From: Isoetes taiwanensis
Lineage: Eukaryota > Streptophyta > Lycopodiopsida > Isoetales > Isoetaceae
Reading direction: 5' to 3'
NCBI GenBank assembly: GCA_021234155.1
Contig: JAJEKV010000025.1
Location: 6,119,310 to 6,183,309, forward strand
Length of the DNA stretch: 64,000 bases
A program made the translations under genes and the position numbers. This document shows, piece after piece, positions 6,616 through 61,967 of the stretch (its first letter is position 1; every line of letters starts with the position of its first letter). The notes beneath the pieces were generated by a model. The model was not told the origin of the DNA. It ran no database searches and saw only the letters and a program-made list of their open reading frames with translations.

Positions 6616-6706
<91 letters not shown>
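6616..6706. repeat. (GA)n microsatellite
   Basis: About 45 GA units with one slip near 6699. The minus-strand frames across it give Leu-Ser runs and are not genes. Confidence 0.95.
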
Positions 6707-12343: not shown

Positions 12344-13681
12344 TCACTTCAATCTATTTAGAATCAGACAAAATATAAAATTTTAATTTTTAGTGATTTA
12401 ACAAATTTAAAATTGCCAATCATGATAATTTTTAAATTTGCTTTAGGAAAAATTTTAAGTTGAAATTAATTAAATGATAAAGTTAATGTTTTAATAATAA
12501 CTATTGAATAATTTATTATTGATGAAATAAAATATAATCAATAATAAGCTATTTAATTTTTAAAATATAAGTGTAATTAGTTAATTAATGTCAATCTAAA
12601 AGATTCTTCTATGGATATTTCTAAAAAATAACATTTTAATCATAGAGAGTTTATCTTGGATTAAAATTTAATTCTAAATAGAGCAAAGTGAAAATTAGTT
12701 TAGAAAGCAATCTTATACTTTAGTAGCCATCATACTTTTGATCTAAAGGTAAATTGAACGAATTTTTGAAATCAATAAGAGTTGAAAATACTTATAATCT
12801 TATCATGACATCCTTGAAGTGTATCTATTAGATTTGAATAAGTCCAAATTTTGTTAAATATGTCATAATGTTATTGGCATTGTTAGTAGATGATAGTAAT
12901 TTATTATAATGCTTTAAAACTTGCCTTATGGTCCAGAACAACTTCTATCTTCGATGGCTTACTGCTTGCGGTGTTTTGATATGTACTAAGGAAAGCTCAA
13001 TAACCTGTATATTTTACCACGTCTATGCAGCTAGATGGTTAATGTGGCAGGACATCCCAAATATGTATGTACAAGCGAAAATGAATGTGGCAGGGTTGAG
13101 ATAGATCATTATTAGTAAATAGAAATCGAGCACAAGTGCTATTTTTCTTCTAATATATCAAGATCAAATGGTCCCTTATGTTGCTCCATTTGTAAGAGGG
13201 ACGAAAGCACATAGTTTGTGCTTCCGTATGGGCTTCCTTGCACAGTCTTCTCATCTGACCACCCAAATTTGTAGGATTTCTAAGACTGAACTCTTTATAT
13301 TTTTTCTCTATGTTTTTTTCCAATTCACATCCATTGCCGAGTTAGAGCCAAAGATGTACCTCAAGAAGGCTCATAAAAGAAAAGATCAAGAAGAAGAGCT
13401 TTCTTGGTAACGACCACCAAGACAAGGTATGCCAGAAAATGATTAGAACTCTTGAAATGATAACCTCAAACGACATCTTTCACTTCTATCACATATTCTT
13501 CTGTGCCATCTGGGAAATAGTTTTGATTGGCTTAAACATACTATAAATATTGCTTATGTTTGCAGGCTTGCAACAAATTATATGAAATTAGAAGTTATTA
13601 AAATGCAGCATCTTTAAAGCTAGCAGATGCAATGGCAGTTCCATTTATTTCCTTTCAGTGTTTACTTTTTCTGGTGTTGCT
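12344..13681. other. very AT-rich spacer, no gene seen
   Basis: Long runs of A/T with no coding signal. The open frame at 13168-13410 lacks a recognisable domain. It leads into the first R1 repeat copy. Confidence 0.4.
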
Positions 13682-14459
13682 CTAGCCAATGCTAACTGGA
13701 TCCATGTCTCTAAGGCTTTCGAAAACGATTTCTTTGGAGCATTCTATTCCATGCATGTTAAGATCGTCATTTTACTTTTGTATTAATATTTGTTATATTT
13801 GTATAGTTTGCTTATTTGAGGTGCCTATTAATGGTCATAATAAAGCTTGATCACTTGCTGCATTTTTAGATGTCATTGTTGCAATAGTTTGTTAGGGCTA
13901 TAGGTTGCCACTTCATGGTGATATAATGGCGATTTATGCTATGTAGCCCAAGTTTAGTCGCACGAATCAAAAGCTTGCACCCATAGTTATCCCATAACAA
14001 AGTTGTAGTTAGGATTCGATGTCATGTTCTCCACCTCTCATTCATCAGTGACCCATAGTTAAATTTTGATGTCATGTTTCCCATCTAGGTGCTAGAGGCT
14101 TGATCAATAATAACTCTATATAGAGTTGCATGCTCCGATAACATATGCTTTTTCTACGTATTTGGTGTATTTGTGCATAGAATAGACCATATATATATGT
14201 TTATGACTTTTGTTTTGAGCTTCTTAATGTACTACATTTGCTTAGCTAAACATATTTCGCATATGGGCAGTTTACATTTTGTTCATGAACTTTGTTGCTT
14301 TTAAAAATCGCCTCTTGAGATGCTAAAAGGGATACATTTTTTAGAAGATTAGTCATTAATGCCCTTACACGAAAAAGACAAGATTTGTTCTCATCTTCAT
14401 TTTTTCATGCAAATGTCCATTTTCTATCCTTCTTCAATTTCAATCATGTAAGATGCCCT

Positions 14460-14753
14460 TCATTCCACTGCATCTACAAAGATGATTATATATATGTAAT
14501 GTTCTATTGCACTTGCAAAATTTGATATCTTGACCCATTCCACACGTGCTTGAATAATGCCCGGCATTGCCAGGCACGCGTCTCTAGTTTGTAATACTTT
14601 GACACCATGTTGAAACTCAAAGTAAACCAATAAAGTCTCACCAACCAATAAAATTCCACCAACCATGATAGGCATTGGCACCATGTGATAATCCAGCCAA
14701 AGACACTTCAATGGGTTCTTTTGTAATTGCTCATCCACATAATTTTTTTGCAT
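14460..14753 (-). CDS. recurrent R1 ORF, 97 aa, unknown function
   Basis: The frame starts MQKNYVDEQLQKNPLK, is open to a stop at 14460, and recurs with few changes in the other R1 copies. A central stretch reads LVYFEFQHGVKVLQTRDAC and a tail reads RVEWVK followed by an aromatic, Ile-rich end. I recognise no family. Just upstream a CT/AT-rich tract ends in AG (TTTAAATAATTATAAG), which could be a splice acceptor, so this may be a last exon. The same sequence PPIMQxNYVDE appears degenerately further upstream in the unit, so the segment itself has been duplicated. It could also be a non-coding conserved repeat that happens to be open. Confidence 0.4.
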   Translation of the reverse strand: MQKNYVDEQLQKNPLKCLWLDYHMVPMPIMVGGILLVGETLLVYFEFQHGVKVLQTRDACLAMPGIIQARVEWVKISNFASAIEHYIYIIIFVDAVE

Positions 14754-15828
14754 AATTGGTGGATCATATTGCTGTAGAAGATGATGGTTATGTGCTTATA
14801 ATTATTTAAAAAGAAGAATCTTGGTTTCCATTACAATCAAATCCATTCGACATACTAAACATATCCCAGAATCAAATCTACAATCTCTTTCTAATGTCCA
14901 TATTGGTTACAACTTGGTTTCACACTTTGTTAATCCTCATTTGACACTATATTAAAAAATTGTAATTATAAAGGTATGATAAATTTGTACATCTTCACAA
15001 ATGTCAAGAAATTTGAAAGTTGGGTCTGTTTCATACCGTGATGTACTTTATTGACAATTTCTACTATTAGATTGGGTTCTTTTTTTTAATTTTCTATTTC
15101 GTCTAAAGACAATGTCATTGTCATTGATCTATCTTCAACTACTGGTTGATTGATCTATCTATCTTCATCTACATCAATGAAGGGTTGCCTTCTACGCATC
15201 ATCCACCTCTTTTTTGGACCCATCCTTGCATGCCAGACCGAGTTCTATGCGGCATAGGAAGGATAGGACGTTGATTTATTCCCAGAGGCCGCATACAGCA
15301 AGCATAGGAAAAGCGAGGCAGGAGAAGCTGCGGGAGTCTTTGCTAGAAGGGCACGTTAGTAGTATTTGTATCGATTACAACCAACAAATTGTGTGGTCTG
15401 GATCTCTGCCATGTGATAGAGGGACCAGTAAAAGGAAAGGGTCCTTTTGCTCGACACGTGGCGCCAATATTTTGCTACAAATACTACATAGGTTGGGTAG
15501 TTGGTTGTATGCAAATTTGGGATTGCGTGTATTCTTGGGTAGGGCCATGCTAATATTTTCTCCATCGTCTCATGTTTATCGGATGTGCCGAAGGATCAAA
15601 TTCGGATTTGATTCTGGCCTCAAAGCCCCTTCATCTCCAAACTAGCCCTTCTAGTTCAAACTCATCAAACCTGAATCGAAATCCCGTTGCTGACTAATTT
15701 GGGCCGAAAATGATATGATGAGCGTTAATATGTTGAAAGGTTTCAGAAATGGCCAATTGGGTTCGTGTATAATTTCTCATCCACATAGTTCCTCTGCATG
15801 ATCGGCGGATCTTACTGCTTCAGAAGGT

Positions 15829-15928
15829 GATGGTTATGTTTTATCCTTCGCCCGACTACCAATTGATCATTTTCTAAAACCACGAATTTGGATTCCCTCA
15901 TCCGGGCAAAGGATAAAACATAACCATC
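15829..15928. repeat. 18-bp perfect inverted repeat in R1
   Basis: GATGGTTATGTTTTATCC (15829-15846) is repeated in perfect inversion at 15911-15928 with a 64-bp spacer. The same words recur in the other R1 copies, near 19524 and 19604, and as three arms at 27276-27490. The pair can form a stem-loop in RNA or a cruciform in DNA. Confidence 0.8.
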
Positions 15929-16299
15929 ATCTTACTGGCCGAGGGCTCAGCGGAAGGATGAGCACATCCAATTGATCATTTTTCTACCACGGGAATCCCT
16001 GCATAGTCGGCGGATCTCGGTCTTTGCGAAGATGGTGTATGTTCTCAAAATCACGGTGATCTGCAGTTTGCGGCATATCTAAACTTATGGATGGTAAGCA
16101 AATGTCACGGATCGTTATAATACTTTAATTATGAATGTTGTTATCCGCAAAGTTCTACTTGGCTGATGACATTTTAGGGAGCGAGGTGGATTTTATTTTG
16201 CGAACTGTTCAGCGGAAGTCGCGAGATCGGAAAACCTTACAAGTTGATTTTGGCCCCATAAGCAGCAAAGCAGTGCTCTTGCCTCCTTCATAGTAAGAA

Positions 16300-16640
16300 T
16301 AAGGTCACATGAGGAGGTCGACATGGTATAATCCATGTCGACGCGGAATATATAAATTGTCTTGGAATTATGGCAGAATCATATTTGCACAAATGATGCC
16401 ACTGTGTTACATAAGCAGGTTGCATGAGCATTTTGGATGGTCCATCTACTATGAAATCCTTCTACTGCTACATATTCCAATCCAAGGTATTCATGTCAAC
16501 ATGAATCAATTCAGTCGAGGAGGTAAGCCGGTGGAACCGATTCATGTTGACATGAAGCACTCCATGTCAAAATGCCTCATGTGAACCATGTCAAAAGATG
16601 TTTTGATGTACAGTGAGATGTATCTTCGTATGACCTTACC
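16300..16640. repeat. cluster of short palindromes with GTYRAC cores, R1 copy 1
   Basis: Within about 340 bp there are several near-palindromes: GGTCGACATGG...CCATGTCGAC, ATTCATGTCAACATGAAT and GATTCATGTTGACATGAA, plus further CATGTCAA half-sites. Each is centred on GTCGAC, GTCAAC or GTTGAC. The cluster recurs at 20020-20290, 26700-27030 and 30905-31060. Confidence 0.75.
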
Positions 16641-18180
16641 TTAAAAAGCGGGTTCTAAACATGAGACTTTCTTATATAATGAAGCACCTTTTGTGGTATT
16701 TACCTTGTAAAGGTTTGTTTACGGTACTGCACATCTTCTTCAATAAGCAAACTAGTTTTGCGACTTAGGTAGCCAACATGTTTTGTCCATGATTTACGCA
16801 CGCAAAGCCAATATCTTTGAAGTTCATGCATAAAATAAGAATGTTGATGAAATGATCAAACAATGGTGCATACAATTCAATGAAGTTTTAAATGCACTTA
16901 ATTCCTAGCAATCCACTCCAATATTTGCATTCAAATTCTATAGCAATTAACAACATTCAAGAATATTAGACTTAGAGACAGGAAATGTACTTACAATAAA
17001 AATATAGTTGAGGCATGTTTGTATTTTGTGTTGCATGGCTAGAATATCCAAATTTATGTATACATTAATGGCACAATCAATCCCGGGTACACTTTTGCCT
17101 ATTTATATAATGGAAATTACATTCTCGGGATTGCTCCTGCGATTTTCCTCCAACGAATTGGATCATTCCACTTCCATGACTAATAGAAATCTCGGGCAAT
17201 TAGAGTTGAAAGGCGGGTTTGAGTATCATGTTCTCCACCTCTCATTCATCCCATTGACCCATAGTTAAATTTTGATATCATGTTTTCCCATCGGGTGCTA
17301 GGGTTGATCAATAATAACTCTATGTAGAGTTGCATGCTCAGATAACATATGCTTTTCTCATTATTTGGTGTAGATATATATATATATGTAAGAATGTTGA
17401 TGAAATGATCAAACAATGGTGCATGAATTCAATGAAGTTTTAAATGCACTTAATTCTGAAATCCACTCCAATGTTGCATTCAAATTCTATGGCAAGTACA
17501 ACAACATTCAGAATATTAGACTTAGAGACGAAATGTACTTGCGGCAAAAATATAGTTGAGACATGTTTGTATTTTTTGTATTCACGGTGAGATATCCCAA
17601 ATTTATGTATACGGTAATGGCTGATCAATGGTACTTTTGCCTATTATAATGGAAATTACATTCTCGGGATTGCTCTTGCGGAATTTTCCTCCAATTCGGA
17701 TCATTCCACTTCCATATGACTAATAGAAATCTCGAACGAATTAGAGTTGAAAATGGGATTTGATGTCATGTTCTCCACCTCTCATTCATCAGTGACCCAT
17801 AGTTAAATTTTGATATCATGTTTCCCATCTAGGTGCTAGAGGGTTGATCAATAATAACTCTATGTAGAGTTGCATGCTCCGATAACATATGCTTTTTCTA
17901 CGTATTTGGTGTATTTGTGCATAGAATAGACCATATATATATGTTTATGTTCTTGATGTACTACATCTGCTTAGCTAAATATATTTCGCATATGGGTAGT
18001 TTACATTTTGTTTATGAACTTTGTTGCTTTTAAAATTTGCCTCTTGAGATGCTAAAAGGGATACATTTTTTAGAAGATTAGTCATTAATGCCCTTACACA
18101 AAGAAGACAAGATTTGTTCTCATCTTCATCTTTCATGCAAATGTCCATTTCCTATCCTTCTTCAATTTCAATCATGTAAG

Positions 18181-18464
18181 ATGCCCTTCATTCCACTCCA
18201 TCTACAAAGATGATTATTATATGTAATGTTCTATTGCACTTGCAAAATTTGATATCATTGACCCATTCCACACGTGCTTGAATAATGCCCGGCATGCTGG
18301 GCACGCGTCTCTAGTTTGTAGTACTTTGACACCATGTTGAAAAAAGTCTCACCAACCAATGAAATCCCACAACCCATGATAGGCATTGGCACCATGTGAT
18401 AATCCAGCCAAAGACACTTCAATGGGTTCTTTTGTAATTGCTCATCCACATAATTTTTTTGCAT
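18181..18464 (-). pseudogene. R1 ORF copy 2, frameshifted
   Basis: The N-terminal part (MQKNYVDEQLQKNPLK...) is intact from 18464, but about 26 bp are deleted in the middle, where the GETLLVYFEFQ segment lies, and an extra base near 18255 shifts the tail. It is otherwise nearly identical to the copy at 14460-14753. Confidence 0.5.
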
Positions 18465-20561
18465 AATTGGTGGATCATATTGCTGTAGAAGATGATGGTT
18501 ATGTGCTTATAATTATTTAAAAAGAAGAATCTTGGTTTCCATTACAATCAAATCCATTCGACATACTAAACATATCCCAGAATCAAATCTACAATCTCTT
18601 TCTAATGTCCATATTGGTTACAACTTGGTTTCACACTTTGTTAATCCTCATTTGACACTATATTAAAAAATTGTAATTATAAGGTAGCAATAAATTTGTA
18701 CATCTTCACAAACGTCAAGAAATTTGAAAGTTGGGTCTGTTTCATACCGTGATGTACTTTATTGACAATTTCTACTATTAGATTGGGTTCTTTTTTTTAA
18801 TTTTCTATTTCGTCTAAAGACAATGTCATTGTCATTGATCTATCTTCAACTACTGGTTGATTGATCTATCTATCTTCATCTACATCAATGAAGGGTTGCC
18901 TTCTACGCATCATCCACCTCTTTTTTGGACCCATCCTTGCATGCCAGACCGAGTTCTATGCAGCATAGGAAGGATAGGACGTTGGTTATTCCAGAGGCAC
19001 GCCACGAAGCATAGGAGAAAGGCAGAGCAGGAAGCTTCCTGGAGTACTGCTAGAAGACGTTAGTGACTGTATCGATTACAACCAACAAATTGTGTGGTCT
19101 GGATCTCTGCCATGTGATAGAGGGACCAGTAAAAGGAAAGGGTCCTTTTGCTCGACACGTGGCGCCAATATTTTGCTACAAATACTACATAGGTTGGGTA
19201 GTTGATTGTATGCAAATTTGGGATTGCGTGTATTCTTGGGTAGGGCCATGCTAATATTTTCTCCATCGTCTCATGTTTATCGGATGTGCCGAAGGATCAA
19301 ATTCGGATTTGATTCTGGCCTCAAAGCCCCTTCATCTCCAAACTAGCCGCAGTTCAAACCGTAAACTTTGAATCGAAATCCCGTTGCTGACTAATTTGGG
19401 CCGAAAATGATATGATGAGCGTTAATATGTTGAAAGGTTTCAGAAATGGCCAATTGGGTTCGTGTATAATTTCTCATCCACATAGTTCCTGCACTTGATC
19501 GGTAGGATCTTCTGCCTTGAAGGTGATGGTTATGTTTTCTTGGCGGAGCTACCAATTGATCATTTTCTAAAACCACGAATTTGGATTCCCTCATCCGGGC
19601 AAAGGATAAAACATAACCATCATCTTCTGCTTGGCCGGGGCTCCAGCGGAAGGATAGGCTTTGTCAATTGATCATTTTCTACCGATCCCTGCGCCGTCGG
19701 TAGGATCTCGGTGCCTTGAGGAAGATGATTGTTATGTTTTATCCAAAATCCTGTTGATCTCACGGTTGCGGCATAATATCCTAAGCATGGATTAGGTAAA
19801 GCAGATATGCGGATGGGTTACTATCTTTGCTAATTATATGAATATTGTTATCACAAAGTTCTTGCAACTTTATTGACATTTTTAGGGGCGAGGTGGATTT
19901 TTTATTTTCTTGGAGAACTATTCAACGTCTTGAGGATCCGGGAAGCAACCTGAAGTGACATTTGATTTTGGCCCGAAGCTGACAAAAGCGGTGCTCTTGC
20001 CTCCTTCATAGTAAGAATAGGGTCACATGAGGAGGTCGACATGGTATAATCCATGTCGACATGAACCCTTATAAATTGTGTGGGTCTCATGATCATGTTG
20101 CACAAATGATGCCACGTGGCAATAAAAGATGGTCCATCTACTATGAAATCCTTCTACTGCTACATATTCCAATCCAAGGTATTCATGTCAACATGAATCA
20201 ATTGATCAAGAGGTAAGCGGGTGGAACGATTCATGTTGACATGAAGCACTCAGTCAAATGCCTCATGTGGTGCATCAAAGATGTTTTGATGTCTAAGTAA
20301 GAAGATATGCGACATCTTCACGTGACTATACAGCAAAAGCGGAGTTCTAAACATGAGACTTTCTTATATAATAAGAAAGCACCTTTTGTAGGTATTTACC
20401 TTGTAAAGGTTTGTTCTGAACCTTCCACATCTTCTTCTAATAAGCAAGCTAATTCAACTTGAGTAGCCAACATGAACATCCCATGATTTACGCAAAGCCA
20501 ATATCTTTGAAGTTCATGCATAAAACAAGAATGTTGATGGGAAATGATCAAACAATGGTGC

Positions 20562-21546
20562 ATTCTCATTTTGACTCGCGCGGCCTAACAACGTAGAAAG
20601 AGAGGAGCTTCCGTCGATCCGAGATGAAGGCTCGAGAAATGCCCCATAGTGGAGGAATGCGAGGAGTAAGCGAGGCGAAGGATAGGAAGGAATCACGAGA
20701 AGATAGGAAGCGCCGAGGAAGGGATCGCCCGGGGAAAGGTCGCCTTGAGGGCCAAGGTAGAAGAGAACCGAGAGCGATAAGCGCCCGAGGAAGGGATCGC
20801 CGGAAAGGTCAGGTCGAGAGAAACAAGAATGATAGGAAATGCCACGAAAGGTCAACCCATGCAAGAGAAGCCCCTCCTGCGCATGAGCATAAGTATAACA
20901 CGAAACAACTGGCTGAAATGGATGGGGCTTTTCTATTCATCCCAGCCAGTCTTAATTACAATGGTAGAGAGTGGGTAGCTGCATGTCATAAGCTACCCAA
21001 AAACAAAAATACAGGGAATATCCGGTCTGTACACGGACCCCAAAATACAAAAATATATCATAGATGTTTGGCTAGTGTATTTACTGGGGCTTATCATGCG
21101 AGGGATTAAAAACCCAGCCCTTTTGGGTTTGAGGAAAAACCCTAGCCGATAAGCCTAGGCGTTAAGGCTGGGCTGTAGAGTACTAAACTTCCCAAAACCC
21201 GCGCTCCAAAAAGAAACCAGCGTCGTGCAGCGCTTACAATGTACTGCATAAGACCACAAAACACAATAGAGAAAGGAGCAAAAACCTGCAGCGAGGGCTG
21301 ATTAAGCGCGTGCCACGCGGAGCAAACATATATAAACAAAATACTTAGGGAGGGAGGGAGAGAGCATAGAACACCAACACGAAACAACTTCTTTGGCGAA
21401 GAAGCGTAGATGAGAGGTACGAGGCGAATGCGGGGAAAATAGCGATCCCCTAGGATAGAGGAGGCGAAATGCATGCAATGCATGCGAACTAGCGCATGCA
21501 ACTCTTGCGTAACAAATTAAAACTTTCGAGAATGCAGCGATCCGTC
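20562..21546. mobile_element. ~985-bp GC-richer insertion inside R1
   Basis: The host sequence CAATGGTGCATACAATTC is split here: it stops at TGCAT (20561) and resumes with TGCAT at about 21547, so a 5-bp duplication is likely. The insert is much richer in GC than R1. It has an open frame of 161 codons at 20624-21109 with an Arg-rich first half (RKRRGRDRPGKGR) and a less biased second half. It also has a 119-codon minus frame (21142-21501) and the telo-box-like AAAACCCTAG near 21134. Terminal bases are TC...TC, not TG...CA. I cannot assign the class. Confidence 0.5.
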
Positions 21547-22346
21547 GGATCGATCTGCATACAATTCAATGAAGTTTTAAATGCGCCCAATTCACAGCAA
21601 TCCACTCCAATGTTACATTCAAATTCTATATGGCAAGTACAACAACATTCAAGAATATTAGACTTAGAGACGAAATGTACTTGCAATAAAAATATAGTTG
21701 AGGCATGTTTGTATTTTGTGTTACATGTGAGATATCCCAAATTTATGTATACATTAATGGCACAATCAATCAGACTGCACCTGCCTATTTATAATGGAAA
21801 TTACATTCTCCGGGATTGCTCCTCTGATTTTCCTCCAATTCGGATCATTCCACTTCCATATGACTAATAGAAATCTCGAACGAATTAGAGTTGAAAATGG
21901 GATTTGATGTCATGTTCTCCACCTCTCATTCATCAGTGACCCATAGTTAAATTTTGATATCATGTTTCCCATCTAGGTGCTAGAGGGTTGATCAATAATA
22001 ACTCTATGTAGAGTTGCATGCTCCGATAACATATGCTTTTTCTACGTATTTGGTGTATTTGTGCATAGAATAGACCATATATATATGTTTATGACTTTTG
22101 TTTTGAGCTTCTTGATGTACTACATCTGCTTAGCTAAACATATTTCGCATATGGGTAGTTTACATTTTGTTTATGAACTTTGTTGCTTTTAAAAATTGCC
22201 TCTTGAGATGCTAAAAGGGATACATTTTTTAGAAGATTAGTCATTAATGCCCTTACACAAAGAAGACAAGATTTGTTCTCATCTTCATCTTTCATGCAAA
22301 TGTCCATTTCCTATCCTTCTTCAATTTCAATCATGTAAGATGCCCT

Positions 22347-22640
22347 TCATTCCACTCCATCTACAAAGATGATTATTATATGTAATGTTCTATTGCACTT
22401 GCAAAATTTGATATCATTGACCCATTCCACACGTGCTTGAATAATGCCCGGCATTGCTGGGCACGCGTCTCTAGTTTATAGTACTTTGACACCATGTTGA
22501 AACTCAAAGTAAACCAATAAAGTCTCGCCAACCAATGAAATCCCACAAACCATGATAGGCATTGGCACCATGTGATAATCCAGCTAAAGACACTTCAATG
22601 GGTTCTTTTGTAATTGCTCATCCACGTAATTCTTTTGCAT
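22347..22640 (-). pseudogene. R1 ORF copy 3, frameshifted
   Basis: Same segment as the other R1 ORFs, with the start ATG at 22640 and the stop region at 22347. It has the same extra base before the last third as copy 2 (ATATCATTGACC instead of ATATCTTGACC), so copies 2 and 3 share a more recent ancestor than either does with copy 1. Confidence 0.5.
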
Positions 22641-22735
22641 AATTGATGGATCATATTGCTGTAGAAGATGATGGTTATGTGCCTATAAGTATTTAAATTT
22701 GAAGAATCTTGGTTTCCAGTACAATCAAATCCAGT

Positions 22736-23085
22736 GACGCAACCCTTGATGTAGATGAAGATAGATAGATAGATAGATCAATCAATTAGTAGTTGAAGAT
22801 AGATCAATGACGATGACATTGTCTTTAGAAGAAATAGAAATTAAAAAAAGAACCCAATCTAGTAGTAGAAATTGTCAATAAAGTACATCACAGTATGAAA
22901 CAGATCCGACTTCTAAATTTCTTGACATTTATGAAGATGTACAAATTTATTGCTACCTTATAATTACAATTTTTTATTATAGTGTCAAATGAGAATTAAC
23001 AAATTGTGAAACCAATTTGTAGCCAATATGGACATTAGAAAGAGATTGTAGATTTGATTTTGAGATATGTTTAGTATGAGCAAGC
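22736..23085 (+). repeat. inverted R1 segment at the array end
   Basis: This is the reverse complement of about 14858-15190 in copy 1, carrying the (GATA)n tract and the TTGTCAATAAAGTACATCA block. In copy 1 the same segment follows CAATCAAATCCA in the other direction, so about 340 bp were inverted here. Sequence beyond 23085 no longer matches R1. Confidence 0.75.
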
Positions 23086-23446
23086 CCATGTTTTAAACTT
23101 GCTTGCTAAATACCAAAGAAATGTCAAATTCAAAAGCTATTATCACATCTAATCTCCGAACAAGTTGCTATCAATAAGTTCAAAATCCAGCCTGCAGTGA
23201 TATTGTTAACTATGACGTCAACATGTTCATAAGCCAACCTGCAGTTGACATTGTTATCACATCAATGAAGTTTCACCTCCTCCTTAGAACTATGCATTTG
23301 ATTTGAGCTTCAAATTCTGAGAGACCAAGAATTTCTAGAGCATGACTGAAATATTACTTGGCATTGTTTGAATGGAGGCGCTTGATCACTTATAGGAAGT
23401 GTTTAAGCCACGGCTTGTCTGATTTTTGCAACAAGCCCTAACTTAC

Positions 23447-24292
23447 CAGTGCCATTGAGAGGAATTATACATTTTTCATCTTGGAAAGACCACTGCAAAA
23501 AAGATACTACAACCTCTTCCATATGCAAATTCACTTTAAGGATTCAAGGTAGGCGTGTGTGTGATCTGAGTTCCTATAAGCGATTCGCGACTCAGGCAAA
23601 CTCCTTAATTCTTCAACAAACTCCTTAATTGAGAGCCCTGCAATGTAAATAATAGACATAAGCTTAACAATATAAGATGCTAATGCTATGGCTCCACTTT
23701 AAATTCCAATGTAACATTGACCTCACAATCACAAACCTTGTCCAGTACCAACGTCGTAAATCCCAAAGGCATGGCATGATTCAATGGATCATCCATCAAA
23801 TGCGTGACATGGATGTAGTCCCGCACGCAAGTCCCATCCTTAGTAAAATAATTGGTACCCCCTTCACTTAAGGACCGTTCTGAGGATATAATGGGGTATG
23901 TCATAGGAGGTCAGCGTTTTAATCTCAACACATTATACTTGAGTCCAAGAATGACTACCCATTTAGCGTAAAGCATGCACTCCAGAGATACACTCACTTC
24001 CGCGAGCTTTGGATGAGGAGTGCTTCTCCTACTCCCCTTAGGTAATGAGAATCGAGAAGACATTGAAATAAGCTGAGGGAATTTGAAGAGTTGTTTTTAT
24101 TAGAACTCTATATCATAATGCAAAAACAAAGAGCATTCCATTTCAAAGGAATGAGATGATACAGAGCGTATGAGAGAAGAAAGGGGCATATTGCAAGGAA
24201 TCCTATGATCAAATTGAGAGACTTGAGCATAGTCCCACTTACAATGTCTTCCGCCATTTTCTTTGCTTTTCCATATATATGGATTGATGAAG
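23447..24292 (-). pseudogene. UDP-arabinose/xylose 4-epimerase (UXE/MUR4-like) pseudogene, copy 1
   Basis: This is the C-terminal half of a Golgi UDP-D-xylose/UDP-L-arabinose 4-epimerase, a GalE-type SDR that makes UDP-arabinose for cell walls. Minus-strand exons: 24243-24292 reads YGKAKKMAEDI (the YxxxK catalytic motif region) and ends at a GTAAGT donor. Exon 23737-24107 begins after ATATAG, holds YFNV, a degraded GRLGEAPRPEL-like stretch, DGTCVRDYIHVTHLMDD and GIYDVGTGQ, and ends at a GTTTGT donor. Exon 23447-23637 follows TTTACATTGCAG, starts with SIKEFVEE and ends with SKMK near a GTAAG donor. Internal frameshifts and a short duplication in the last exon kill it. Retained introns show it came from genomic DNA, not from a processed mRNA. 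Confidence 0.8.
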
Positions 24293-24474
24293 CTTTTATA
24301 TACAACACAATGTAGCATACCTAATGCAATTAGACAATCATATTCCCAGCATGCTTGGACCTTGATCAAATTACCTCACAGTACTTATACGTGATTGGCA
24401 TTATCTTAGAGTTACCAATATAAATCATTGCCTCCTCAAGCTGTAAGCATGTTTGCTATGATGTCTAGAAGTAA

Positions 24475-25130
24475 TTCAATGGATCATCCATCAAATGCGT
24501 GACATGGATGTAGTCATACATAAGTCCCATCCTTGGCCAAAATAATTAGTGTCCTTCACTTAGGATAGATTACATATATAATGGGGTATGTCATAGGAGT
24601 CCTTCAATTTTAATCTCAACATTACCTACGATCCATAGACCAATGATGCCCATTTAAGCATCAAAGCATGCGAGGAGATACACCCATGTTCCGCAGGCTG
24701 GATGAGGTACTTCTCCTACTCCCTTAGTGTCGAATCGAAGACATTGGGAAATAAGCTGGGGAAATTTGAAGAGTTGTTTTAGTAGAACTCTATATCGCAA
24801 TGCAAAAGGAAACAAGAGCATTCCATTTCAAGGACGGATACAAAAGCGTATGAGGCGGCATATTGCAGATCACAACGGTCAGTGAGAGACTTGAGCACCG
24901 TCCCTTACAATGTCTTAGCCATTTTTCTTTGCTTTCCATATGGATTGATGAAGCACATACAACACAATGTGGCATACCTAATGCAATTAGACAATCATAT
25001 TCCCACGCGTAAGCGGACAAGCAGTCAAATTACCTTTGTGCCTTCTGTGATTGGCATTATCTTAGAGTTGCCAATATTGTATCATTGCCTCCCGAACTGT
25101 AAGCATGTTTGCTATGATGTCTAGAAGCAA
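24475..25130 (-). pseudogene. UXE/MUR4-like pseudogene, tandem copy 2
   Basis: Direct duplicate of 23780-24474 (offset 695 bp). It again carries the minus-strand YDYIHVTHLMDD coding region next to the junction, a better preserved EHGCIS near 24680, and INPYGK with the GTAAGG donor near 24903-24952. The break lies inside the exon after DDPLNH. More indels than in copy 1 show independent decay. It lacks the last exon, which exists only in copy 1. Confidence 0.75.
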
Positions 25131-25839
25131 TTTTATAAGGCTATCTACTGCCAAGAAGCTCAGATGGTGTCTCATTTTCACCACAAGTTGGACACAACTA
25201 GTAAGAGTTGCATTAATCACTAAACAAAACTTGAAGTTTTAATACTTTGATCCTTCTGTTCCAAACCAAAAAAGAAATTTGAATTTTAAGAGCCAAAATT
25301 TGAATTTAATGGGCAAGATCAACTTCTGTCCACCTCCACGTGGCAAAAACATAATGCATACCAAAAGTTTAGATTATCTAATATTGCCCAACTAAAACTC
25401 TTTAATGCATGCCAAAAGTCAATTCATACTTTCAAAGATGTGGTGTAATCTTGCCTAGCGTATGATTCAACCTCATTAATGTCCTTCTAAAACAAGTAAT
25501 TAACCTAGCAACATATTTGCATTCAAAGTATTCAAGTATCGCTTGATTTCTCAAAGATGTCTAGTATTTTACTTGAAAAAATGCGGGTATGTTTAATATT
25601 ATGAAATACTCATTAATATATTATTATCTATTTATCTATAAAAAAGGAACATTCGTGGGAATGTTCCTAAAACCATCCGATTTAATATGCTTTACCATCC
25701 TAAGAAGATTTTTTGATGGTAAGTAGATTTCTAAGAACCACAAAACAAGATTCAAGTATTTCATCACAAAACGCTTGCAAAACAAAATGTCCATCACACA
25801 ATTTTGAGGTAAACTTTTACATTTATCGAACTATCCAAA
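25131..25839. other. AT-rich spacer between the UXE relic and R1
   Basis: No gene or repeat of R1 type is seen. It separates the duplicated pseudogene from the right-hand, oppositely oriented R1 array. Confidence 0.4.
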
Positions 25840-26699
25840 TCTAGAGGGCAATAACCCCATTTTCAACTCTAATTCACCTCTCCAGATTTCATTAGTCATA
25901 TGGAAGTGGAATGATCCGAATTGGAGGAAAATCTAATATGACCTCTCTTAGCACCTAGATGGGAAACATGATATCAAAATTTAACTATGGATCATCGGGA
26001 TGAATGAGAGGTGAAGAACATGACATCGAATCCCATTTTCAACCTAATCTGACCGAGATTTCGCTAGTCATATGAAGTGGAATGATTCAAATTGGAGAAA
26101 ATCTGAGAGAAACCTGAGAATGAAATCTCTATAAAATAGGCAGTGTAACCGATTGAGTGTGCCATTAATGTATACATAAATTTGGGGCATTCCCACCTGT
26201 AACACAAAAATACAAACATGCTTCAACCATATTTTATTGCAAGTACATTTCGTCTCTAAGTCTAATATTCTTGAATGTTATTGTAATTTTGCCATAACAC
26301 AAAAATACAAACATGTTTCCAACCATATTTTATTGCAAGTACATTCTGTCCTCTAAGTCTAATATTCTTGAATGTTATTGTAATTCTGCCATAGAATTTG
26401 AATGCAACATTTTGAAAGTGGATTGCTAGGAATTGGGCGCATTTAAAACTTCATTAAATTGTATGCACCATTGTTTGACCATTTCATCAACATTCTTGTT
26501 TTATACATGAACTTCAAAGATATTGGATTTGCGTGTGTAAATCATGGACAAAACATGTTGGCTAGCTATGTTGAATTAGTTTGCTTATTAGAAGAAGATG
26601 TGGAAGGTTCGTAAACAAACTTTTACAAGGTAAATACTACAAAAGGTGCTTCATTATATAAGAAAGTCTCATGTTTAGAACTGCCTTTAGGGTAAGGTC

Positions 26700-27030
26700 A
26701 CATGAAGATGTCGATATCTTCACTTAGACATCAAAACATCTTTTGACAGGGTTCACATGAGGCATTTTGACATGGAGTGCTTCATGTCAACATGAATCGG
26801 TTCCACCTGCTTACCTCCTCGACTGAATTGATTCATATTGACATGAATACCTTGGATTGGAATATGTAGCACTAGAAGGATTTCATAGTAGATGGACCAT
26901 CCAAAGTGCTCATGCAACCCGTTTATGACACGTTGCATCATTTGTGCAACATGATCATGAGACCCACACAATTTATAAGGGTTCATGTCGACATGGATTA
27001 TACCATGTCAACCTCCTCATATGACCTTAT
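26700..27030. repeat. palindrome cluster, R1 copy 4
   Basis: GAAGATGTCGATATCTTC near 26706, ATGTCAACATGAATC near 26786, GATTCATATTGACATGAAT near 26830 and a paired GTCGACATGG / CCATGTCAAC near 26987-27013. The same order as in the other copies, read on the other strand, shows that the whole cluster is an inherited part of R1. Confidence 0.75.
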
Positions 27031-28523
27031 CCTTACTATGAAGGAGGCAAAAGCACTGTTTTGTTGCTTCCGGGGCCAAGATCAAATGGTACTTGTGTTG
27101 CTTCTGGATCTACACGGTTGAATAGTTCTGCAAAATAAAAATCCAATTCTGGCTCCCTAAAATGTCAATGCTATGAATTCCCATATAACAATATCTATAA
27201 TTAGTGATAGTAACGCATCTAGATATTTGCTTTACCATCCGTGTTTACGCCAAACCGTGAGATCAACAGGATTTTGGATAAAACATAACAATCATCTTCT
27301 CAAAGAGATCATGATCCACGACTATGAGACGTAGAAAATGATCAATTGACAGGCTCATCCTTTCGTTGAGCCTGCTGCAGAAGATGATGGTTATGTTTTA
27401 TCCTATGCCCGGATGAGGGAATCCAAATTCGTGGTTTTAGAAAATGATCAATTGGTAGTCGGGCGAAGGACAAAACATAACCATTACCTTCTGAAGCAGT
27501 AAGATCCGCCGATCATGCAGAGGAACTATGTGGATGAGAAATTATATACGAGCCATTTCTGAAACCTTTCAGCATATTAATGCTCATCATATCATCTTCG
27601 GCCCAAATCAGTCAGTTGGGCGGATTTGTTTAAGCAATGGGATTTTGATTCAGGTTTGATAATTTTGAACTAGAAGGGCTAGTTTGGAGATGAAGGGGCT
27701 TTGAGGCCGGAATCAAATCTGAATTTGATCCTTTGGCACATCCGATAAACATGAAACGATGGAAAAAATATTAGCATGGCCCTGCCCAAGGATATACGCA
27801 ATCCCAAATTTGCATACAACCAACTACCCAACCAATGCAGTATTTGTAGCAAAATATTAGCCTAATGCAGTCGAGCAAAAGGACTAGTCTTTACCGTCCT
27901 CTATCACATGGCATGATCTAGACCACAATAATTTGCTTAGTTGCACCGATGTACTACTAACGTCTTCTAGCAATACTCCAGGAAGCTTCCCGCTTCCTGC
28001 CTTTCCATAAGCCGTAGCTTCTGAATAAATCAATGTCCTATCCTTCCTATGTTGCATAGAACTTGGTCTGGCATGCAAGGATGGGTCCAAGAAAGAGGTG
28101 GATGATGCGTAGGAGGCAACCCTTGATGTAGATGAAGATAGATAGATAGATCAATCAATCAGTAGTTGAAGATAGATCAATGACGATGACATTGTCTTTA
28201 GAAGAAATAGAAATTAAAAAAAGAACCCAATCAGTAGTAGAAATTGTCAATAAAGTACATCACGGTATGAAACAGACCCGACTTCTATACAAATTTATTG
28301 CTACCTTATAATTACAATTTTCTAATATAGTGTCAAATGAGGATTAACAAAGTGTGAAACCAAGTTGTAACCAATATAAACATTAGAAAGAAATTGTAGA
28401 TTTGATTTTGGGATATGTTTAGTATGTCGAATGGATTTGATTGTAATGGAAACCAAGATTCTTCTTTTTAAATACTTATAGGCACATAACCATCATCTTC
28501 TGCAACAATATGATCCACCAATT

Positions 28524-28809
28524 ATGCAAAAGAATTATGTGGATGAGCAATTACAAAAATGCTTCATTGAAGTGTCTATTGATTACCCACATGGTGCCAA
28601 TGCCTTACTGCACAGGATTTTATTATTATGAGACTTTATTGGTTTACTTTGAGTTTCAACATGGTGTCAAAGTATTACAAACTAGAGACGCGTGCCTGGC
28701 AATGCCGGGCATTATTCAAGCACGTGTGGAATGGATCAAGATATTAAATTTTGCAAGTGCAATAGAACATTACATATATATAATCGTCTTTGTAGATGGA
28801 GTGGAATGA
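28524..28809 (+). pseudogene. R1 ORF copy 4, frameshifted
   Basis: Begins MQKNYVDEQLQK at 28524. A deletion then changes frame, and the conserved tail GVKVLQTRDACLAMPG...VFVDGVE runs to the stop at 28809. The tail is almost identical to the copies at 14460 and 62217. Confidence 0.55.
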
Positions 28810-29078
28810 AGGGCATCTTACATGATTGAAATTGAAGAAGGATAGAAATGACATTTGCATGAAAGATGAAGATGAGAACAACCTTGTCTCTTTGGTGTAA
28901 GGGCATTAATGACTAATCTTCTAAAAAAATGTATCCCTTTAGCATCCTTCAAGAGTAAGGATTTTTAAAGCAACAAAGTTCATGAACAAAATGTAAACTA
29001 CCCATATGCTAGGCCATGTTTAGCTAAACAAAATGCAAGTATCAAGAAGCTCAAAACAAAAGTCATAAACATATATAT

Positions 29079-30165
29079 ACAAGAAATTAATACGCCCTAA
29101 TGGCGATTGCTTTCGCTTAAAGACGTTCTTACTAAAGTCTCTATAGTGCTCTGTGATAACCAATCCATTCTACTGGAGATTCTTTAGATTCCTTGGGACT
29201 TCCTCTTAGAATTTTCTATTTTGATCGAGGTGCTTACCCATGAGCATTTAAACCTTCTAAAATAATCTATTTTGGATCTCAGGTAACATTTCAAAACATT
29301 TTCTATTTTTAGATCGAGATGCTTTGCCCCGAAAGCATCTAGAATATTTTTTTTTTTTCAAGATTTTATATTGTACACCTTTTTATTATGAAATATTTTA
29401 GAACATTCATTGTCGCCTTCTTACAAATCTTAAAACTCTAAGATTTCATCAAGATTTTCTTAGATTCTTTAGATATTAAGTGAAGATTCTTAGATTCAAT
29501 TAGATTTAAGAGATTCCATTAGACTTGTATATTTTCCGGATTCTCTTACAATTTATGAGATTTTATATTCCCTTTTAATTCTCCTCGATTCCCTTTACAT
29601 TCTAGAAATTTCTAGAACATTTTAGAATCCCTTCGAACATTTTAGTGCTCTAAAACATCCTAGAATATTATAGTCTATTTTATCTTAATAAACATTACCC
29701 TTAAGTATACGGAAAGCATAAATTTTCATAGAATTAATGCTTGGTCTAAAGTGGTTAGAGTAGGGGTTTGGGGTTGGAGGACTGTGGTCCAATCCTCCCA
29801 ATAACATAAAAATTTTAAAAAGCCTTTCCTTATGTAGCATTCATTTATGAGCCTTTAAGATCTAGACTCCATCAACTATCAAGATCTCTACCTATATAAA
29901 AGCACACGGTTCTCGTAGGGATCTATTAGCATATAATTCCCAAAGCCACGTGGACCGTGAGATGTGTCCCCGCCACGGTGGAGCCGTCGGATCTCGGACC
30001 GACGGCCAGATCGAATTAACTGGACCAGAGGGACCGCCGTACACATATTATATGTAAACTCCCAAAGCATTCGGGCCGTAGGGATACGGCCCCAAACTCC
30101 ATGGTCGCCTGATCTCGAATGGACCAAATGATAAGCTAAAGATAAGAACATATAGAGATCGACAT
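29079..30165. mobile_element. insertion with AGATTCT-rich repeat, at the R1 unit junction
   Basis: R1 sequence stops at AAACATATATAT (29078) and resumes at ACATATATGGTC (about 30160), with an ACATATAT word on both sides. The insert holds a degenerate AGATTCT/TAGATT repeat at about 29160-29690, a tRNA-like segment (29742-29800) and a GC-richer stretch with GTCGG/CCGAC words (29940-30120). A related AGAATCT-rich insert sits at the same R1 position in the distant copy (60506-61967). Confidence 0.55.
29742..29800 (+). mobile_element. tRNA-like SINE head or decayed tRNA
   Basis: TGGTCTAAAGTGGTTAGAG (29742-29760) resembles a pol III A box with its D-arm context, and GGTCCAATCCTCCC (about 29786-29799) resembles a B box. 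Spacing is about 40 bp. Acceptor and anticodon stems are not convincing, so a functional tRNA is unlikely. A tRNA-derived SINE is the likely reading. Confidence 0.4.
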
Positions 30166-31086
30166 ATATGGTCTATTCTATGCACAAATACACCAAATAA
30201 TGTGAGAAAAAGCATATACATTTTGAGTACGCAACTCTATATAGAGTTATTATTGATCAACCTTCTAGCACCTAGATGGGAAACATGATATCAAAATTTA
30301 ACTATAGGTCACTGGATGAATGAGAGGTGAAGAACATGACATCGAATCCCATTTTCAACTCCTAATTCGACCGAGATTTCTATTAGTCATATGGAAGTGG
30401 AGATCCTCAATTGGAGGAAAATCAATGAGAATGAAATTTCCCCCTATAAATAGTAAGGTGCAAAGATGATTGATTGCAGCCATTAATGTATACATAAATT
30501 CGGGGTATCCACCGTGAACACACAAAAATACAAAACACGCTCAACTATATTTTTACTGGGTAAGCACATTTCATCTCTAAGTTCAATATCTGAATGTTAT
30601 TGTACTCCCATATAATTTGAAACATTGGAGTGCATTGCCAGGGAATTCATGCATTTAAAACTTCATTGAATTGTATGCACCATTGTTTGACCATTTCATC
30701 AACATTCTTGTTTTATGCATGAACTTCAAAGATATTGGCTTGCATGTAAGCTCAAGTAGACAAAACATGCTGGCTAGCTATTTTGAATTAGTTTGCTTAT
30801 TAGGAAGAAGATGTGAAGGTCTGTAAACAAACTTTTACAAGGTAAATACCTACAAAAGGTGTTTATCTCTAAAGTCTCAGTTTAGGAACTGCCTTTTAGG
30901 GTAAGGTCACATGAAGATGTCGACATCTTCACTTAGGATATCAAAACATCTTTGACAGTGGTTCACATGAGGCATTTGACATGGAGTGCTCTATGTCAAC
31001 ATGAATCACCTTAATCAAGGCCACCGGATCAATTGATTCATGTTGACATGAATACCTTGGACTGGAATATGTAGCAAGAGAAGGGG
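30166..31086 (+). repeat. R1 repeat, inverted array, copy 5 (truncated)
   Basis: Continues the right array head to tail: promoter region with CTATAAATAG near 30447, leader, and palindromes at 30905-31060. It breaks off after ATGTAGCA near 31075, where other copies continue into the rest of the unit. Confidence 0.75.
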
Positions 31087-33399
31087 TGTAACTTGAGTTC
31101 ACTTCTTCCATTGACTTTGTTCTTTTGAATTCCAGAATTTGGTCATTTAAAGTTATACTCCGTAACAAAGCAAAGATGAAAGAATTCGTGGCATATTTAT
31201 CTTCAAAATTTGTACAGGTAAAAGCTTCATAGTGTTGTTATTTATCTTTAACATTTATGCAAGTTAGCTACAAAAAAAAATACCCCAGACAGTGATGGCA
31301 TGTTTACTTTAACCTATGTGCAAGTTGCTACAGAAAAAAATGACATGTTTATCTTTAACTTATGCAGTGAAATGAAAAAAGCTTGCCTTGCCAAAAAAAA
31401 AAAAAAAAAAAAAAAAAAAACTTATGCAGTGAGCCACATGAAAGCTTCACCAACATTTATTATTATTTAGCTTTAACTTTTGTGCAAGTTAGAGCTATGC
31501 TATGATGATTTTAAAAGCTTTCATTAGGTTATTGCAAGAGCTACAGATTATCAAGAGTTGGTTGGAGGTTACAAATTATTTTGAGCTTAAGCCTGATAGT
31601 TGCAGGTTCTGTTGGCTCCAGTTTAAATGGCTCAAACAAGAGATTTCTAATTGTTATAGAAACGTAGTCACATCCAGATGAAAAATTGTAGCTCTATCCA
31701 GGTCAAACATCAGGTCCAGGTTAATAAGCTTTGTAGCTCGTTGCTTCCACCAGCATCTGTACAATCCATGCTGAATTTTATAGGTTCCTGCTTGTTCATG
31801 TGTACATACTCAAAGATAAAGCGAACAGATTACTTCAATCCCATTTCTATAGTAAACACCTACTGTTATTGTCAACATAGGAGGAGGAATGAAAAAAAAA
31901 AGAATATTGCCTTCAACTGTGAAAGACAATCACAATAAAGATGGATTGTTGATTTAGAAAAAGGCAATGCAGAGTAGATTGTCTAAGTTAAACATTGACC
32001 AACGGGCCTATAACTCAATCAATAATCTAAATATAATCAATAAATTCACCTGGAATTTTGACCTAGAATTAAAACTTATAAACTCATTGTAATTGGATTC
32101 TCTCACAATTATCACTCAGGAACCTTGATGAACCCAAATGGGTTCATTCGTACACTTTGTTTGAAATTCTATTATAGCTCTGAGATAAAGAATTTGTCTA
32201 CAATACTCACAATATGTTGTCCTCCATGAGTGTACATATAAGGAAAAATTTATGAAAAATATAGAAAGCTTCTATTACCAAATATAATGTGGAGCCGAAT
32301 GCAAAGGGGTCAAGTTTATTCTCAAAGTCTTTAATATTTCTCACATTATTTTGCAAAAATGAATTTTTCTAGGAATTCTAATTCTTTCATCTTGTAAATC
32401 ATGATATGAGAAAATCTATCACAAGAAGGATTAGAAAAATCTATGATAGAAGTTTTGAGAAATAATTCCTTAAAGTTTGAAGTTCAGAAGTTCTTTATGG
32501 ACCCAGTTAGGTCCCCCGAGGGTCAAAATTTTGAAAATTCATAGTATTACTCCACTTTTTGAAAAAATGAAATCCATTTAGCAAGACATGTAGTACTTAG
32601 TATCTATTTCCATTGAAAAATAATATTACCTTCATATTCTTATTCTATTTCAAATGTCATGGATATGAAATGGTTCCTAGATGTCTGTTTTTCAGAAATT
32701 CCTTAGGGACCTGACTGGGTCTCTCAAGGATTGAAATTATGATTCGTTGTTGAAAGATATCCAAACCATTGAATTTTGATTTATTGAGGATTTCAATACT
32801 TGTGCCTATTGCTTTTCATCAATAAATTAGATGGTGGGGAACTCTACTGGTAAAATCTATGCCGAAGCTTAGGGTGTGAATATTGACAATAGTTTATAAC
32901 ATTGAAATGTAGTGGTGCTCGTCAATTTCTTAGGTTGGTGCCACTATATTTTACATGGCTCGTATTTCTAATGGCTGAAGGATGTTATGGACTTTCTTCA
33001 AATTTTAAAATGTCAATTTGGCTACGTGGTATGCACTTCTAAATGAGGATGGAAAAATGTATTATAGATTCATGGTTGGATCAATTGTCATTGCATTAAT
33101 GCAATTATGATCGTCGTAAAATTGAAAAATTGGCGTCAAGTACATTACTAAATGGTGACCATTACATACTTACTAGATCTCATGGGTTGCAGTGTGCATT
33201 AGCAAACTGTGATAATGATGTAGTATTGAACCTCATTGAAATTTTCACATATTTTGCTATTAAAGCATTCCCCTTTATAGCCCCCAAATACCATGCGATA
33301 CATGGTTTGGAAATGCCAAAAAACCATAAATAGTAACTTAATCTAAGTAAACGTTCAAAATTGTTGGCTCTCCTAAATCTAATTCAAACTTTTCCACAT
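31087..33399. other. AT-rich spacer with short repeats and an A tract
   Basis: A degenerate 70-80 bp tandem repeat (TTTATCTTTAAC...GCAAGTTGCTACA words) covers about 31220-31480 and includes an A run of roughly 28 at 31393-31420. The open frames at 31678-31938 and 33130-33333 have no recognised domain. No gene is supported. Confidence 0.45.
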
Positions 33400-50665: not shown

Positions 50666-51010
50666 ATGGCGTCTACGGTGCTTTGTAGAGGACTAGAGAA
50701 GATTTTCGAAATCCATGAGAGTGGCTTCCTTTGCTGGGAAGGGCGCTATGGGCGCGGTCAAGATCTGCACGCATATTAGCAGCGCCACAGAATTCGCCTG
50801 CAAAATCATTCCAAAACAAAACATCTCCAGCCAGACTCCACACAGAACCTTCCTCAGAATCGGCCGCCTTGTTTCCAAAAATCCACATTTTGCTGCATGT
50901 CGAGATTGTTACCAAGATGCCCACAATGTATATCTTATCATGGACCTTTGCCATGGCGGATCTCTGTTACACTACATCAAAACAGGGTTTTCTGATACGA
51001 AGATATGTTT
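50666..51010 (+). pseudogene. Ser/Thr protein kinase, N-lobe exon
   Basis: Candidate start ATG at 50666 (MASTVLCRGLEKIFEI). After a frame change the glycine-rich loop reads GKGAMGAVKICTH (from about 50736), then FACKIIPKQ with the VAxK-type lysine. HNVYLIMDLCHGGSLLHYI follows, matching kinase subdomain V (hinge) of CDPK/PEPRK-like kinases. The exon fades after GFSDT near 51000. The two frames would need one indel to join. It pairs with the catalytic exon at 54047. Confidence 0.72.
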
Positions 51011-55860: not shown

Positions 55861-55863
55861 TGC

Positions 55864-60062: not shown

Positions 60063-60505
60063 CTAGCCAATGCTAACTGGATCCATGTCTCTAAGGCTTT
60101 CGAAAACGATTTCTTTGGAGCATTCTATTCCATGCATGTTAAGATCGTCATTTTACTTTTGTATTATTATTTGTTATATTTGTATAGTTTGCTTATTTGA
60201 GGTGCCTGTTAATGGTCATAATAAAGCTTGACCACTTGCTGCATTTTTAGATGTCATTGTTGCAATAGTTTGTTAGGGCTATAGGTTGCCACTTCATGGT
60301 GATATAATGGCGATTTATGCTATGTAGCCCAAGTTTACTCGCACGAATCAAAAGCTTGCACCCATAGTTATCCCATAACAATGTTGTAGTTAGGATTCAA
60401 TATGTTCTCCACCTCTCATTTATCAGTGACCCATAGTTAAATTTTGATATCATGTTTCCCATCTAGGTGCTAGAGGGTGTATTTGTGCATAGAATAGACC
60501 ATATA

Positions 60506-61967
60506 TCAGTTATATATATAAAGGTATATCATAAACTTTCTATATAATGTGTTCGATTTTCATATGCCCCTGGATGTCGTCTGTTGAAGGTGGGTCCAAA
60601 GTGAGGTGTATGCAAGACGAGCCATCCATTCCTTATGGGCACGCATGGGAGGCAATGGCTAAGTCATGATGGGGCATGCACCATTAACCCCTAATCGCTG
60701 ATCAAAAAGGAGGATAAATCCTACTTGGTTTTTATGAGGAAGGTGCAAGGGAAGGTCCTTGAAGTGACTTTGGTGTAGCAGATCTTAACCGCTAGATCAA
60801 AAAGGTGAGCATAAACTTTAGCCATTGACTTTTTAATATTAAATTGACTTTTTAAAGGAGGTGAGGTGTCACCCCACACAATAAAAAAGGTAATGAGGTG
60901 GCAAAAGCATTTTATGAGTGGACTTTCTATGAAGCCTTCATTAATCAAAGATTCAAATAAGTATTATACTTGCAAAAGTAGAGGGCCTACGAAGTGGGAC
61001 TCCATGCCATTGGACTCTCCTTAATGAGCTTCCAATGAGCTGCATATCAAGACTGCTGTAGTTGGAGCCAATGATCAAACTCTAAGGGAATCCATAGAAT
61101 CCCCGAGAATCTAAAGGAATCTCTTCATGTCACTTGGATAATCTTATATGAATCCTGGGATGCAATCTTGAGAATCTAGGTGAATCTTCATAGAATCTAG
61201 AGAATCTAAAGGAATCTCAAGAGAATCTTAGGGGAATTCCAGGGAATCTCAAGAGAATCTTAGGGAATCTATGGGAATCTCAAGAGAATCTTGGGAATCT
61301 ATGAGAATCTCAAGAGAATCTTGAAAATCAAAGGAATCTCAAGAGAATCTTTGAAAATCAACGGAATCTATAGGAATCACGCAGAGAATCTTTGAGAATT
61401 TAAGGAATCCAAGGAAATCTTTATAGAACTCAAGAATCTGCAGGAATCTTGATGGAATCATGTCAAGTCTAAGGGAATCATAGGATCTTGCAGAACAGAG
61501 AACTTTTAAGAATCATGGGAATTAAAGGAATCTTTCTAAAAGCTTTGAGAATCTAGTGAAATCATGATGGAATCTTGAGAATCATGGAGAATTTTCCTAT
61601 AATCTAAAAGGAATCTAGAGAATCTTCATCAAATCTTGGAGAATTCAATAGAACTACATAGAATTTTGGGGAATCTAGAGGAGTCTTGGGATAATCTTTG
61701 GGAATCTGTAATTTAATATCAAGAGAATCTTTGGGGAACCTAGGGAATTAAGGGAATGTCTCATAAAATCTTAAGAATCTGATAGAATCTTTGGAACGTA
61801 GGAAATCTTCATAGAATCTTAGGGAATCTCTATAGAATCTTGGAGAATCTTACACCTTTTGAAATCAGGAGATTCTAAAAAGAATCTTGTTAACATAGAT
61901 TCATAAAGAGCCTAGGAAATGCTTATAGAATCTTCATTGAATGACTCAAGATTGGCTTCCTAATGAA
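60506..61967. repeat. insert with degenerate AGAATCT repeat
   Basis: Between 61080 and 61910 GAATCT recurs every 10-13 bp in variants such as GAGAATCT, GGAATCTC and AGAATCTT, a decayed short-period tandem repeat. The first 550 bp contain GATCTTAACCGCTAGATC and AT-rich sequence. It sits at the same AT-rich R1 junction as the insert at 29079-30165, whose repeat is the complement, as expected for the opposite orientation. Confidence 0.75.

Follow-up and report, generated by a model that had tools for sequence, protein, structure and literature searches.

Plant Helitrons are reported with ends formed by a palindrome, a gap and CTAG followed by T (PMC2702305, PMC6591975), and a bat Helitron has been demonstrated to read through past its own end (PMC4778049). 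Arrays of Cassandra elements, which are terminal-repeat retrotransposons in miniature (TRIMs), are also known in plants (PMC7215508). Here we compare with these systems a repeat, R1, in a 64,000-nt window of Isoetes taiwanensis (contig JAJEKV010000025.1, 6,119,310-6,183,309); copies were counted within this window. We put at roughly two in three the probability that R1 is a composite non-coding tandem repeat, made of nested transposon debris and reshuffled by recombination. It looks like ordinary genome clutter, not a new mobile element. An initial annotation had offered three identities for R1, and the satellite-like amplicon fits best among them, given the head-to-tail copies, the period of ~3.2 kb and the mosaic neighbours.

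Copies, edges and order were taken from self-BLAST of the window. There are six copies or fragments (Table 1), with c1-c5 at 13,682-31,084 and c6 at 60,063-62,974, some 29 kb away from that cluster. This agrees with the at least six originally claimed, in an interval that omitted c6. Long BLAST alignments among the copies have 80-97% identity and E near 0, so chance is excluded; c1 and c5 aligned globally, with indels included in the count, reach only 69%. Across segments A and B (14209-14845), c1, c2, c3 and c6 are mutually 94-98% identical and c4 is 86-89% identical to them. The divergent partial copy c6b is 85-88% identical to c1, c2, c3 and c6, and 76% to c4. Both c1 and c6 begin with a distinct 5' half (13682-14013), unlike the other copies, and that of c1 matches c6 from 60063 with 97.4% identity over 417 columns. 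Outer edges differ between most copies, except for the left edge common to c1 and c6 (13682/60063), and body copies are alike on both sides of each internal landmark. Self-comparison, which had been suggested for fixing the unit ends, gave the copies and the period but, that left edge excepted, no fixed common ends, and the proposal of one mobile unit is not supported.

The plus-strand copies run head to tail from c1 through c2 to c3, and the minus-strand copies from c5 to c4, with a monomer of ~3.2 kb. The 5' half of c1, segment a (13682-14013), is followed by the body (14013-16836) and segment u (16836-17225, 390 bp), beyond which a second body starts and continues to 17372. Periods were obtained by arithmetic on alignment coordinates, with insertion and spacer subtracted. 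Successive body starts are 3204 bp apart in c1. From c2 to c3 the distance is 3147 bp (less the 992-bp insertion with its duplication), and from c4 to c5 it is 3232 bp (less the 1,084-bp spacer, the 97-bp duplication still included). A head-to-tail arrangement with a near-constant period, here 3147-3232 bp, is that of a tandem amplicon. A monomer form of ~4.3 kb contains the spacer with minisatellite words.

In a three-way comparison of c1, c2 and c3, 26 sites are shared by c2 and c3 only, 38 by c2 and c1 only, and four by c1 and c3 only. Up to 14572, 16 sites join c2 to c3 against c1 and none joins c2 to c1 against c3. The interval 14591-14660 is mixed (four and two sites, respectively), and from 14698 onward 36 sites join c2 to c1 versus six that join it to c3, the latter in one run at 14972-14978, which we read as an alignment shift. 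Of the 38 sites shared with c1, 11 fall within 14588-14845 and the remainder inside the block inverted in c3 or along its edges. Copy c2 is a mosaic, c3-like up to ~14,590 and mostly c1-like beyond, as expected from exchange or conversion between copies; the reshuffling presumably proceeded by recombination. A monomer of ~3.2 kb would have been assembled from decayed debris, comprising a Helitron-type 3' terminus, a stretch derived from U6 small nuclear RNA (snRNA) and foldback palindromes. It would then have been duplicated and reshuffled by unequal exchange or gene conversion, with deletion at TA repeats, local inversion and later insertions reshaping it further. The tandem was perhaps seeded by Helitron read-through.

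Later changes to the array are visible at several junctions. The 992-bp insertion in u is flanked by TGCAT at 20559-20563 and 21556-21560, and the corresponding site of c1 has a single TGCAT; this 5-bp target-type duplication belongs to the insertion, not to R1. The insertion has a higher GC content (0.488 over its first 988 bases) and no recognised ends or protein, and may be a transposon in its own right or a degraded solo long terminal repeat (LTR). The c3 block at 22739-23078 is the inverted counterpart of 14851-15188 (340 bp). A spacer occupies the site after the equivalent of 14194 in both c4/c5 and c6, and TA repeats stand there in c1-c3. Exact GAATCT words number six in the 1,084-bp spacer and 38 in the 1,461-bp spacer, and the two align weakly with each other. 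A GAATCT-type minisatellite lies inside the c6 spacer at 61080-61850. The simplest reading would be that the spacer was lost between TA repeats in c1-c3.

Much of the array might instead be an assembly artefact, with noisy or misjoined long reads and fewer real copies, and the distribution of differences bears on this. Copies c1 and c2 are identical over a run of 309 bp, where 39 would be expected were differences evenly spread, despite some 100-column blocks that are just 51-54% identical; the sequence around 15,980-16,300 is scrambled. Weaker clustering is seen, as longest run versus expected, in c1/c4 (106 vs 31), c2/c4 (75 vs 25), c1/c5 (41 vs 16) and u of c1/c2 (40 vs 26), as well as in a duplication at 23779/24474 (41 vs 16). 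Segment a of c1/c6, however, is not clustered in this manner (105 vs 104), the copies show distinct clean differences in segments A-C, and the insertion and the inversion give unique junctions. Two other duplications are unclustered (16 vs 12 and 18 vs 16) and are weak controls because they are short or diverged. The clustered differences could come from noisy repeat assembly or from conversion between copies, either of which fits, and we regard an artefact on this scale as very unlikely. The duplication at 23779 is a tandem one of ~0.7 kb between c3 and c4 (23779-25132, 78% identity by BLAST), with block-like differences as in R1.

Two parts of R1 were missed by the initial annotation, namely a Helitron-like 3' end and the U6-derived stretch. 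All five body copies carry the 19-nt palindrome TGCCCGGCATTGCCGGGCA, altered at one or two positions, and, seven bases further on, CTAG followed by T. Outside c1, the CTAG starts at 18311, 22471 and 62341 on the plus strand and at 28685 on the minus strand. A GC-rich hairpin ~7-15 nt before CTRR and a following T, as in Helitrons, is thus found in five of five. The palindrome would have been 9-1-9 in the ancestor, and none of the present copies has kept it unchanged. One CG pair of the right arm has become CA or TG in four of the five, a pattern that decay of a methylated site would produce; c6 is altered in the left arm. A motif scan for the end also gave two sites outside R1. With arms of nine and one mismatch allowed, two settings returned five and four sites in the window, four of them in R1 each time (c2 was missed), versus averages of 0.18 and 0.03 over 60 dinucleotide-shuffled sequences. 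The single-strand fold of the c1 end is unexceptional (z = -1.6, 15/200 shuffles equally good). From the palindrome-CTAG-T signature we infer a former Helitron end.

The most interesting rival, which we consider unlikely, holds that R1 is a non-autonomous Helitron whose rolling-circle transposition overran its own 3' end and carried downstream DNA along, later rearrangement having hidden the ends. The palindrome, 7-nt gap and CTAG-T of all five bodies have the geometry given for plant Helitrons (PMC2702305, PMC6591975), read-through is on record for the bat element (PMC4778049), and c6 lies at a distance from the cluster. Moreover, c6b starts at the exact base after CTAG and is preceded by A, so that it looks like an unoccupied site between A and T; a Helitron overrun would explain this precise junction. 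On the other side, the five ends continue into one common 3' flank and so give no sign of independent insertions, and nothing in 13400-31100 pairs with the left flank of c6b. Nor was RepHel matched above the Pfam cut-off in the frames scanned, although a non-autonomous member would lack it. A consensus for the Helitron 5' end has one match in the R1 region, with two mismatches, at 22859 and in c3 only. The shared left edge reads TCTAGCC in c1, with no A before it, and ACTAGCC in c6.

A retrotransposon origin was among the original suggestions, as a large retrotransposon derivative (LARD). A LARD- or TRIM-type LTR retrotransposon in tandem would give non-coding tandem units, as Cassandra TRIMs do in plants (PMC7215508). 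A primer site with two mismatches, TGTTATCGGAGC, is present on the minus strand at 14132, 17876 and 22020, with a variant at 17336, and by eye the c1 site follows CATA, near the expected LTR end. Nevertheless, chance alone would give ~1.3 sites with two mismatches over the two strands of 17.4 kb, and those in R1 are copies of one site. No transfer RNA (tRNA) primer site with fewer than two mismatches was found in R1 with four patterns, other tRNA primers not having been tried. No LTR pair (TG..CA ends with a target duplication) was recognised in the self-alignments, no dedicated LTR finder having been run. We therefore hold this origin to be highly improbable. Outside R1, an exact TGGTATCAGAGC, a tRNA-Met primer-site motif, occurs at 55862 on the minus strand; it may mark an unrelated LTR retrotransposon.

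The U6 similarity is found in all three copies that reach that part of the monomer (c3, c5 and c6 stop short of it). It covers U6 nucleotides ~4-77 in c1 and c2 and ~10-77 in c4, and the c1 identity, worked out from the alignment score, is ~80% (59/74 columns). The alignment score is 67 in each copy, versus a best of 35 among 40 shuffled U6 sequences over the whole window. All three Rfam scores (Table 1) lie below the gathering score of 44 for U6, and no family reached its gathering threshold when the window was scanned with Rfam.

Since the copies are in tandem, the order of landmarks in R1 is circular and its starting point a choice. Along the plus strand of c1, the Helitron-like palindrome is followed by a TATC tract (15155-15169), the open reading frame (ORF) of the initial annotation, a foldback, a short palindrome (16322-16337), the 18-bp inverted repeat, a TATA-like site at 17099, the leader and the next body. 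The features of the single shared order claimed earlier do recur, but not in the linear order given, and which palindromes were meant was not specified. The 18-bp inverted repeat is real. Both arms are exact in c1 and c2, c4 has one exact and one with a single mismatch, and c5 has one exact. The fold of the inverted repeat has z = -5.4 (0/200 shuffles as good), and that of the foldback z = -6.1 (0/200). Rfam matches to microRNA precursors at these two features fall below gathering scores, and most of them appear on either strand alike, which is what any long inverted repeat would yield. The TATA box holds as a motif, with CTATTTATA exact at 17099, 21785 and 30445 (minus strand) and a variant at 17641, and its promoter role is putative.

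The recurrent ORF does not survive comparison, as over the interval that is open in c1 every frame of c2 and c4 is interrupted by stops. In c2 the latter half of the c1 reading persists, shifted to another frame and with one stop in it, so an assembly error could have closed the c2 frame. Part of this ORF is antisense to the U6-derived stretch. We likewise rejected a frame on the minus strand at 14460-14795, which is open in c1, c4 and c6 but broken in c2 and c3. Pfam scans, with every stop written as X, found no match over the cut-off in those R1 frames that were scanned, confirming at that sensitivity the reported lack of transposase, reverse transcriptase, integrase and Rep/helicase; coverage left out the minus strand of 17389-20399 and much of 32-50 kb and 55-59 kb, and took in one strand only of the flanks. 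Three matches were dropped, Stealth_CR2 (14.6 bits, cut-off 39.4), DUF4028 (15.1 bits, cut-off 25) and, in the flank, a repetitive-protein model (19.5 bits, cut-off 100). A scan for CACTA end motifs gave nothing convincing in R1.

Table 1. Positions of the R1 copies and associated features in the window
Feature	Position	Strand	Comment
R1 copy c1	13682-17388	+	Self-BLAST
R1 copy c2	17389-20563	+	Head-to-tail with c1; c3-like left, c1-like right (self-BLAST, three-way comparison)
R1 copy c3	21556-23078	+	Self-BLAST
R1 copy c4	~25853-29079	-	Self-BLAST; holds 97-bp tandem duplication 26200-26393
R1 copy c5, fragment	30164-31084	-	Self-BLAST
R1 copy c6	60063-62759	+	Self-BLAST; 60063-60506 and 61968-62759 around spacer
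c6b, divergent copy of post-CTAG sequence (14588-14768)	62795-62974	+	Self-BLAST; preceded by A
Helitron-like 3' end, c1	14558-14587	+	Palindrome 14558-14576, 7 nt, CTAG 14584-14587
U6 snRNA-derived stretch, c1	15498-15599	-	Rfam 21.8 bits; alignment score 67
U6 snRNA-derived stretch, c2	19199-19300	-	Rfam 22.3 bits; alignment score 67
U6 snRNA-derived stretch, c4	27727-27826	+	Rfam 26.7 bits; alignment score 67
ORF of the initial annotation, not treated as gene	15181-15645	+	Interrupted in c2 and c4
Foldback, ~30-bp arms, like a miniature inverted-repeat transposable element	~15822-15935		c4 counterpart 27385-27486
18-bp inverted repeat, c1	16490-16556		Exact arms 16490-16507 and 16539-16556
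992-bp insertion inside u, between c2 and c3	20564-21555		Flanks TGCAT; read by eye
1,084-bp spacer between c5 and c4, GAATCT-type words	29080-30163	-	Site ~14194/14209 of c1
1,461-bp spacer in c6	60507-61967	+	Same site as c4/c5 spacer
Protein-kinase exon	50733-50999	+	Pkinase 36.5 bits, cut-off 31.7

From its general sequence character the window looks like plant nuclear DNA. Its GC content is 0.32-0.47 per 2 kb, and no tRNA gene was found in a scan of it. Two long GA dinucleotide repeats lie at 2023-2117 and 6616-6706. No description of R1 was met among the titles and abstract openings listed in a literature search. R1 had no match in plasmid or phage collections, one R1 23-mer had none in genome-contig or viral-contig collections, and one 30-mer had none in the viral-contig collection. 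These negatives say little because the collections cover bacteria, archaea, phages, plasmids and viruses.

Several observations weigh against a composite tandem repeat built on Helitron debris. The array is only two to three units long, and the assembly may not be dependable in this region, where blocks of 51-54% identity adjoin perfect runs. A scan for perfect-arm palindromes before CTAG gave no real sites, and no 5'-TC Helitron end was found in R1. The shuffle support for the 3' end is modest because the five ends copy one site and the settings were picked after the motif had been seen. The left edge common to c1 and c6 has different flanks and may be a true element end, and copies scattered through the genome, if their ends agreed, could still show R1 to be a mobile unit.

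As it stands, R1 is another composite plant-type repeat, and warns against taking a shared internal order for a mobile unit. It is also conceivable, though quite improbable, that rolling-circle overrun of the Helitron terminator laid down the head-to-tail units, which would make R1 a Helitron-generated tandem repeat with U6-derived sequence amplified inside it. If this were true, R1 would still record how a Helitron seeded a long-monomer satellite. In our judgement, few cases are seen in which a transposon has turned into a satellite and the junction survives, and for this reason a read-through origin of the units, if shown genome-wide, would matter more.

Compared with plant non-autonomous Helitrons such as the GIGANTEA-fragment Helitron of Lolium, R1 has a palindrome within the reported 14-21 nt, the 7-nt gap and CTAG then T, and is likewise non-coding and carries other fragments. 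It differs in having no located 5'-TC end, one 3' flank in all copies and a tandem arrangement (PMC2702305). Like Cassandra TRIM arrays, R1 is non-coding, runs head to tail and includes small-RNA-derived sequence (PMC7215508). Unlike them, it has a monomer of ~3.2 kb and a decayed U6-derived stretch, and in R1 neither an LTR nor a good primer site was found, nor a 5S match at Rfam gathering scores. With U6 snRNA pseudogenes it shares ~80% identity over U6 nucleotides ~4-77, and departs from them in that the stretch sits inside a larger repeat and was amplified along with it. Long-monomer satellites that include transposon sequence differ from R1 in that it has only two to three units per array; like them, it consists of tandem multi-kb monomers with mosaic neighbours and nested insertions.

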